Assembly: GCF_002865985.1 (NCBI RefSeq)
Contig: NZ_LNDD01000004.1
Span: forward strand, 186,001-250,000
DNA length: 64,000 bases
Source of the DNA: Thermotoga sp. SG1
Lineage (GTDB): Bacteria > Thermotogota > Thermotogae > Thermotogales > Thermotogaceae
Direction of reading: 5' to 3'
Part shown: piece after piece, positions 21,884 through 23,398 of the stretch
Layout: each line of letters opens with the position of its first letter
Position numbering within the stretch: position 1 is the stretch's first letter
Made by a program: the position numbers and the translations under genes
Notes under the pieces: generated by a model
Told to the model about the DNA's origin: nothing
What the model saw: only the letters and a program-made list of their open reading frames with translations
Databases searched by the model: none

Positions 21884-23224
21884 TCATGTCAGGAAACTGT
21901 GAACCACGTAGAAGTATATCATGATACCCGTCACATCAACGATGGTGGTGAGAAGTGGTCCCGCCATGAAGGCTGGGTCTATCCTGAAAACCCGAGCGAT
22001 GAACGGCAAAATTGCCCCCATCACATTCGCGTACAGTATCAATACAAGAAGGGCAGTCGCAACGGCGAAATTCAACGTGGGGTCAGAAGAGATCAGAAAA
22101 GCCCTCAGATAGAGAACACCCGCGAGGATCAGACCCAGAATGGATCCAATCAGCGATTCTCTCAGCAAAACCTTCCACCAGTCCCTTATGGTCACCTCGT
22201 TCAGTGTGAAACCCCTTATCACAAGCGCCGAAATCTGAGCGCCCGTGTTTCCAGCGGAACCAATCATGGTGGGAATAAAAGCTGCTATCACCGGTATCGA
22301 GGCGAGGAATTTTTCGTAACTTGAGATGATGTTACCGTTCACACTCTCGAGAAGAAGCAGGACAGCAAGCCACGGAGATCTTTTGAGGATGAGTTTCCAC
22401 GTGGGAGTATGAAAATAAGACGTGTAGGTTGCACTCATTGAGGCCATCTTCTGGATATCTTCCGTTGCCTCTTCTTCGATGACGTCCACTATGTCATCGA
22501 AAGTGATCACACCTATCAATCTCTCTTCACTGTCAACCACCGGTAGCATGAGCAGGTCGTACTTCTTCATGAGTTCTGCTGCGACCTCCTGGTCGTCAGT
22601 GGCATGAACGAATACAGGCTCTCTATCCATGATCTCTGAGATTTTCTGATTCGGTTCGGCGGTGATCAGGTCTCTGAGTTCAACGGTTCCTTTGAGTTTT
22701 CTCGTTCTGTCTATCACAACAAGAGAGTAGATGTTCTCTTTTTTCTTTCCTTCTCTTCTCACCCTGTCCAGTGATTCCTGAACCGTCAAGTCCTCGAAAA
22801 GCTCCACGTACTCTGTGGTGGCAAGTCTTGCAGCAGAGTCTTCCGGGTAGTTGAGTATCGCCAGGATCTCTTCTCTTTCCTTTGGAGAAAGATAGGACAG
22901 AAGTTTCTTCACCACATTAGCCGGCATCTCTTCGAGCAGTTCTACTCTGTCGTCCGGGTCCATCGACTCGAAGATCTCTTTCAGTCGTTCTTCTCTGAAG
23001 AGCTTTATGAGTTCAATCTGATCATCCGGTTCAAGTTCGCTGAACACTTCGGCTGCCTTGTCTTTGGGGAGGAGTCTGAAAACCACAACCTTCAAATCGG
23101 GTGGGAGTTTTTCGATCATTTCCTCCACATCGGCAGGATCTTGCTGCTCCAGAACCCTCTTCAACGTTTTGAAGTCGCCTTTTTCGATCAGTTCCTGAAG
23201 ATCGATCTCCACTCTTATCTTCAT
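21884..23224 (-). CDS. mgtE: magnesium transporter MgtE
   Basis: A 446-residue Mg2+ channel. Residues ~1-125 form the acidic N domain of repeated helices (PADVEEMIEKLPPDLKVVVFRLLP), ~130-255 two CBS domains (SEIMDREPVFVHATDDQEVA, then LLMLPVVDSEERLIGVITFDDIVDV), followed by a plug helix and five membrane helices with the pore motif GSAGNTGAQISALVIRG. The CBS and N domains close the pore at high cytosolic Mg2+. ATG 23224 is preceded by GGGAGGTG at 23230-23237; GTG 23230 lies in that site. A leader of about 80 bases with a possible regulatory peptide precedes it. Confidence 0.95.
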   Translation of the reverse strand: MKIRVEIDLQELIEKGDFKTLKRVLEQQDPADVEEMIEKLPPDLKVVVFRLLPKDKAAEVFSELEPDDQIELIKLFREERLKEIFESMDPDDRVELLEEMPANVVKKLLSYLSPKEREEILAILNYPEDSAARLATTEYVELFEDLTVQESLDRVRREGKKKENIYSLVVIDRTRKLKGTVELRDLITAEPNQKISEIMDREPVFVHATDDQEVAAELMKKYDLLMLPVVDSEERLIGVITFDDIVDVIEEEATEDIQKMASMSATYTSYFHTPTWKLILKRSPWLAVLLLLESVNGNIISSYEKFLASIPVIAAFIPTMIGSAGNTGAQISALVIRGFTLNEVTIRDWWKVLLRESLIGSILGLILAGVLYLRAFLISSDPTLNFAVATALLVLILYANVMGAILPFIARVFRIDPAFMAGPLLTTIVDVTGIMIYFYVVHSFLT

Positions 23225-23248
23225 TTTCACACCTCCCTGTCTTTATTA

Positions 23249-23275
23249 CTACGGGGGAAGACTGGTGCTTTCCAC
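23249..23275 (-). CDS. possible mgtE leader peptide (8 codons)
   Basis: In the mgtE leader, GGGAGGTG (23284-23291) is followed after eight bases by GTG and the codons for V-E-S-T-S-L-P-P, then TAG and two more in-frame stops (TAA TAA, 23243-23248). The stops end only six bases before the second GGGAGGTG that serves mgtE. Three stops in tandem after so short a frame are unlikely by chance but not proof. Proline-rich leader peptides control Mg2+ transporter genes in enterobacteria (mgtL, mgtP), so the terminal Pro-Pro is suggestive. The spacing from ribosome site to GTG is slightly long. Expression is untested. Confidence 0.4.
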   Translation of the reverse strand: MESTSLPP

Positions 23276-23312
23276 TTGAAGATCACCTCCCGGAAAGGAT
23301 TTACGCAAAACA

Positions 23313-23321
23313 ATTCTAACA
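23313..23321 (-). promoter_or_regulatory. extended -10 promoter of mgtE
   Basis: On the minus strand TG-T-TAGAAT lies about 90 bases before the mgtE start, giving a leader of roughly 80 bases. TGGAGA, 17 bases further upstream, is a weak -35 candidate. The leader holds the duplicated GGGAGGTG and the possible peptide described above. Confidence 0.5.
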
Positions 23322-23398
23322 CCACGGAAGAAAAATCTCCAGTTAATGGAAGGAAAAACTTCTTTGTCTATCCCTCAATCGTTAATTTCAAAAAAGAG

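Follow-up and report, generated by a model that had tools for sequence, protein, structure and literature searches.

Is the short stretch of DNA that precedes the gene of the Mg2+ transporter MgtE in Thermotoga sp. SG1 a regulatory leader, and if so, how could it act? Outside enterobacteria, the control of Mg2+ importers at the RNA level is mostly credited to the M-box riboswitch. In the window (the whole stretch of 64,000 nucleotides that was analysed), mgtE occupies positions 21884–23224 of the minus strand; the gene matches NCBIfam TIGR00400 with 451 bits, above the curated cut-off of 232.75, and PF01769 (4.9e-33). Its start is most likely ATG 23224, the alternative being an in-frame GTG at 23230. 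A sequence-only reading of this locus had noted that the mgtE leader contains GGGAGGTG twice, with a GTG-started frame of eight codons, VESTSLPP, between the two copies, and these elements are indeed present. The first copy (SD1, minus strand, 23291–23284) is the ribosome site of the leader frame, which runs from 23275 to 23249 on the same strand (GTG GAA AGC ACC AGT CTT CCC CCG TAG). Its two proline codons, CCC CCG (23257–23252), stand immediately 5' of the stop, and the second copy (SD2, 23237–23230), 14 nt past the first base of the leader stop, is the ribosome site of mgtE. The three in-frame stops that had been described are there as well, the TAG being followed by TAA TAA down to 23243; they end five bases before the second GGGAGGTG, not six, and the triple stop is not conserved, since in most relatives one stop codon (TAA, TAG or TGA) closes the frame.

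A sigma-70-like promoter (TGGAGA-17-TAGAAT, with TG 5' of the -10) is predicted on the minus strand at 23341–23313. It is a consensus match only, one match being found for 0.4 expected, and TGTTAGAAT of this region is present in Thermotoga relatives as well. Since the predicted promoter ends at 23313, the leader would be about 80 nt long, with little in it besides SD1, the frame and SD2. We found no intrinsic terminator in it, and a search against Rfam returned no family and no M-box even at E-values up to 5, in agreement with the earlier proposal that any control would not be of the M-box type. Counted over both strands, the window has 148 SD-led frames of 5–20 codons, of which the mgtE leader alone ends in Pro-Pro-stop; together with its conservation in the phylum (below), this makes the frame more than a chance feature.

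We looked for MgtE in 45 genomes of the order to which the window belongs and in 103 genomes of Thermotogota, and read the DNA upstream of 57 genes. An SD-led leader that ends in Pro-Pro-stop precedes 40 of these 57 genes, and 28 of the 29 in the window's order. The alignment of leaders that had been put forward as the way to refute the first reading thus supports it in this respect: 28 of 29 loci in the order, and loci in other orders too, retain the frame with its SD, its two terminal Pro codons and its stop. The frames are 8–18 codons long, start with GTG, TTG or ATG, and are preceded by an SD-like match in all 40 cases. Their peptides are VESTSLPP, VEGTSLPP and VESNNLPP in Thermotoga and its sister genus, of the LESTSSSFSLPP and LEGTSNSISLPP types in a second family (f2), of the VEYPSYSSNKPP, VDYPSCCNPLNKPP and VECPSYSGNQPP types in a third (f3), and MEDYPGSRPP, MGEDYPSSRPP, MDSTGSFFEFSDLPP, MDSASSSSIEYANQPP, MEDPLSSYSNKPP and MDNCDSSKQKPP in other orders. 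Common to the predicted peptides are a Ser-rich body, Pro-Pro directly 5' of the stop and an early acidic residue: 25 of the 26 distinct ones have Asp or Glu at one of positions 2–5.

The variation shows that it is the peptide, rather than the RNA, that is under selection. The mean pairwise identity is 0.85–0.91 inside the frame, compared to 0.29–0.51 upstream and after the stop and 0.41–0.68 between SD1 and the leader start; within the frame it reaches 0.90–0.95 at codon positions 1 and 2 and falls to 0.70–0.82 at position 3. With the frame conserved across the phylum, variation concentrated in third positions and Pro-Pro-stop retained, we regard it as almost certain, from the alignments, that the leader is a real frame of the translated type. 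A conserved peptide could also be a working small protein with an effect in trans, on the transporter for instance, rather than a cis-acting leader. We consider this very improbable: the product would have 8–18 residues and a body that varies freely, only the start, the acidic residue and the Pro-Pro-stop being constant, the frame is in every case found immediately before the transporter gene, and two unrelated transporters (see below) would need the same partner.

The leader is also old. In a tree of 56 MgtE proteins, it is present in 39 of the 44 rows of one clade (support 100/99), its presence and absence require four label changes in all, and the more distant MgtE paralogues are devoid of it; its carriers are thus concentrated in one clade, which points to an ancient origin. 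Some upstream regions depart from this pattern. A leaderless mgtE in the window's own family (L028, genome G034) sits on a very long branch, and is a fast-evolving or acquired copy. Two second mgtE paralogues (L054 and L055, genomes G082 and G090) have a different, longer acidic frame about 130 nt upstream (MEEDLPDSYKI... and MSNEDSVPDSSC...), which in L054 runs into an A/T-rich inverted repeat that resembles a terminator and suggests a version based on transcription attenuation. In L022, L024, L025 and L026, an out-of-frame ATG lies four bases 5' of the mgtE ATG (ATGRATGAAGG), closer to the SD; extra control or competition between start sites is possible there.

MgtE is not the only transporter concerned. 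In several genera of the order mgtE is missing, and CorA belongs to an unrelated transporter family. Short CorA proteins have about 310 residues, and the one that was tested is nearer to the CorA of Methanocaldococcus jannaschii than to that of T. maritima. The genes of short CorA have a leader in 33 of 41 cases in Thermotogota, and in 25 it ends exactly in Pro-Pro-stop. In three genera without mgtE (g12, g13 and g14), corA is directly preceded by an SD-led Pro-Pro-stop leader (MSSESYTSSYSDEPLPRPP, MESYGSYSDEPLPRPP, MSSDSFSRYSDEPLSRPP and MNSESFSSYSDDPLPRPP), and in two others (g2 and g5) the corA gene has no leader; further examples at short corA are MDYFSCSEDPLSRPP, MELYSSEGDLPP and MESASNTEIPLRPP. 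The corA leaders of genus g27 end in EPPL-stop (seven), EPPP-stop (two, counted within the 25) or AMPN-stop (one), so that eight corA leaders of family f9 in this genus end in PPL or MPN rather than in PP-stop, which counts against the explanation proposed below. One corA leader (L203, genome G050) has ACG at the expected start, an apparent loss of ATG, with a GTG two codons later.

On the contrary, the long CorA proteins, which are the orthologues of T. maritima CorA (orthology was tested for the genome of the window), have no leader in any of 35 upstream regions. T. maritima CorA is reported to be selective for Co2+ and unable to regulate Mg2+ homeostasis, a claim made in the title of Xia 2011 (reference 21 in PMC6972854). 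The leader, present at mgtE and short corA and absent from long corA, therefore follows the likely Mg2+ importers and not a gene family, and its distribution suggests which CorA subfamily serves Mg2+ uptake in these cells. That the same leader occurs at short corA genes strongly supports a non-M-box control tied to Mg2+ transport.

The pattern GGWG..TGGA..CCNCCNTRA retrieves from the genomes of the order the mgtE leaders and a few in-frame coincidences, which by inspection resemble pieces of coding genes and of which none is common to different genera. A more generic leader pattern gave 24 matches in the genome of the window, compared to 22 in the control (this pattern demands TAA or TGA, so that the window's own TAG leader falls outside it). 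In the genomes of the order, the predicted leader accompanies the genes of two unrelated Mg2+ importers and was found at no other gene. The mgtE upstream regions that were sampled in other phyla (14 genome contigs and six plasmids) contain no such leader, and searches of the open-access literature turned up no account of a leader peptide before either importer gene, mgtE or corA, in Thermotogota.

The two terminal Pro codons are the most constant part of the leader, as expected if it senses charged tRNA-Pro or the supply of proline, rather than Mg2+ directly, like MgtP of the Salmonella mgtCBRU operon (PMC8092293). However, nine forms of the Pro-Pro codon pair occur among the 40 mgtE leaders (CCACCA in 16, CCGCCA in 10, CCTCCG in five, and six others), and their stops are also mixed (27 TAA, nine TAG and four TGA). 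The identity of the Pro codons thus differs between species, the constant ones are confined to the last two positions of the frame, whereas amino-acid attenuators have runs of them, there is no terminator, and both gene families linked to the leader encode Mg2+ importers; we therefore hold proline sensing to be quite improbable. A tRNA-Pro attenuator proper was considered and rejected, because Thermotoga has two terminal Pro codons only, no terminator, and a codon identity that varies.

How, then, could the leader influence mgtE? The sequence-only reading relied on RNA pairing: CTTCCC (minus strand, 23260–23255), which covers Leu and Pro codons of the frame, can indeed pair with either GGGAGG copy. 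In its simplest form, the untranslated leader would hide SD2 through CTTCCC/GGGAGG, and a ribosome stalled at Pro-Pro would cover CTTCCC, free SD2 and turn mgtE on. Several observations are in line with this switch. The CTTCCY/RGGAGG pairing is intact in the eight sequences of Thermotoga and its sister genus (100% paired), and one of the six CTTCCC/SD2 pairs changes on both sides (U-A in six sequences, C-G in two). At 80 °C, SD2 is open less often in Thermotoga (0.18–0.54) than in most other families, and in f9 corA an anti-SD 3' of the frame can mask the corA SD, as in Salmonella mgtQ (PMC8092293).

However, the covarying stems that had been anticipated amount to this single pair: the other five never vary, nor does the pairing of SD1 with the Pro codons, and the pairing is restricted to Thermotoga and the sister genus. 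In the remaining families, Pro-Pro is mostly encoded by CCG CCA or CCA CCA, which mismatch the SD. The leaders hardly fold at 80 °C, with energies of 0 to about -5 kcal/mol. A second helix, CTTTCC/GGAAAG, had been suggested to enclose SD1, and its upstream arm is lost in the relatives in the leader alignment. The CTTCCC/GGGAGG switch does not hold as a general mechanism, and as an account of the leader we consider it improbable. The pairing between the Leu-Pro codons and SD2 may nonetheless add to the control in Thermotoga, where, weak as it is, it may reduce the basal translation of mgtE when the frame is not translated; it is not the conserved principle.

The geometry of the leader leads to another proposal. 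A ribosome with the leader stop in its A site would have its P site at 23254 and its edge at about 23239, that is about 2 nt before SD2, which begins at 23237. This would leave little room for another ribosome, contrary to what the pairing switch needs, and with the edge of a held ribosome next to SD2, it is no less likely that mgtE translation would be blocked than that SD2 would be freed. The distance from stop to start is 14–36 nt for mgtE and 23–34 nt for most short corA, so that a held ribosome would block or crowd the ribosome site of the importer in most species.

There are reasons to think that ribosomes are held. Pro before a stop, Pro-Pro being among the favoured pairs, draws tmRNA tagging, which indicates that termination is slow, and most bacteria avoid Pro-Pro at the C-terminal ends of their proteins (PMC3985003). 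A conserved Pro-Pro-stop is therefore best read as programmed slow termination. As for the acidic start, acidic and Pro residues destabilise the ribosome on the leaders MgtL and MgtQ and lower their translation in low Mg2+ (PMC11282234, PMC8092293), and by analogy the acidic residue of the Thermotogota peptides may be linked to Mg2+; translation of upstream frames represses corA and mgtA in E. coli (PMC11552253). These precedents led us to propose that the importer is off at high Mg2+ and on at low Mg2+.

We suggest that Thermotogota probably control magnesium import through the slow translation of a short peptide, as follows. The leader peptide would control in cis the translation of the adjacent Mg2+ importer. 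Release would be slowed by Pro-Pro-stop, and the ribosome that has finished the peptide would pause while the stop codon occupies its A site; its front would then adjoin or cover the SD of the transporter gene and exclude a second ribosome. When Mg2+ is plentiful, the leader would be completed, the ribosome held and the importer off. In low Mg2+, ribosomes would drop off early, owing to the acidic beginning of the peptide and to a weakened joining of the subunits, or release would be faster; either would free the SD, and the importer would be made.

The comparison establishes the conservation of the frame, the genes that it accompanies and its spacing, while arrest, a response to Mg2+ and the direction of that response are inferences. 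These steps do not deserve the same confidence. That the leader acts in cis on the adjacent importer is very likely, and slow release at Pro-Pro-stop is only a little less so. Mg2+ as the signal is reasonably likely. The relief of the block in low Mg2+ is a tentative step to which we give slightly less than even chances; the sign of the regulation and the physical sensor are the least certain parts of the scheme. For the explanation as a whole (a cis-acting leader peptide, slow Pro-Pro-stop, a held ribosome that blocks the SD of the importer, and relief in low Mg2+), we have moderate confidence, somewhat above even.

Simple occlusion is not the whole story, as the spacing between stop and start is variable. 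A stalled ribosome would miss the SD in some species, of family f3 and at f9 corA, whose leaders are longer, with 69–93 nt from stop to start; in g27, the leader frame is followed by conserved sequence that includes an anti-SD (ACCTCCTTCT). The read-out may differ between lineages, as the long f9 corA leaders with their anti-SD illustrate. The short distances found elsewhere, with little stable structure between stop and start, would also suit translational coupling, in which the terminating ribosome re-initiates at mgtE and the slow release at Pro-Pro-stop sets the frequency of this event, with or without a Mg2+ signal. We consider coupling unlikely, since the transporter genes carry a strong SD of their own, which makes it unnecessary for initiation, and since the spacing extends to 69–93 nt in f9.

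The leaders of Thermotogota appear to be a separate solution to the control of Mg2+ import, conserved throughout a deep-branching phylum and present at two unrelated importers, which suggests that the reporting of Mg2+ by the ribosome itself has arisen more than once. With 8–18 codons and termination as the likely control point, these leaders make a small system for studying the effects of Mg2+ on release at Pro-Pro-stop, for which nature supplies a set of variants (PP, PPL and PPP ends, and differing peptide bodies).

Among known systems, the M-box riboswitch, which regulates Mg2+ uptake from the mgtE/ykoK leaders of Bacillota and mycobacteria (PMC12810186), is also found before mgtE. The leader described here differs in that it matches no Rfam family, is far too short, and conserves codons rather than RNA pairs. 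The mgtE motif of Thioalkalivibrio (PMC11109978) is likewise a candidate control element before mgtE, but it is a structured RNA, reported only from that genus, and no leader peptide has been described for it. The likeness to TnaC, as described in PMC8092293, lies in the last sense codon, which is Pro, and in the stop codon in the A site of the held ribosome; stalling is putative in our case, and unlike in TnaC there is no Trp sensor residue, the peptide has 8–18 residues only, and there is no tna-like operon.

The closest parallels are MgtL, CorL, MgtP and MgtQ of Salmonella and E. coli, which are also short SD-led frames with acidic or Pro codons before a Mg2+ importer. In enterobacteria, translation of the leader varies with Mg2+, inversely to the expression of the importer for mgtL and corL (PMC11552253, PMC8092293, PMC11282234), and two unrelated importers (mgtA and corA) are under leader control, as in Thermotogota. 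Unlike in MgtL and CorL, the genes concerned encode MgtE and short CorA, the last two codons before the stop are both Pro, the leader stop adjoins the SD of the importer, and the leader of about 80 nt in Thermotoga, with no intrinsic terminator and little predicted structure at 80 °C, is apparently devoid of the stem-loops or Rho sites described for enterobacteria; there is no evident similarity between the peptides. The Thermotogota leaders would thus work like the enterobacterial Mg2+ leader peptides without belonging to them by sequence or visible leader structure. We offer, as a possibility somewhat short of even, that they are ancient, phylum-wide, ribosome-based Mg2+ sensors, made of short acidic Pro-Pro-stop peptides and slow termination, using no riboswitch and hardly any RNA structure, which evolved independently of the leaders of enterobacteria.
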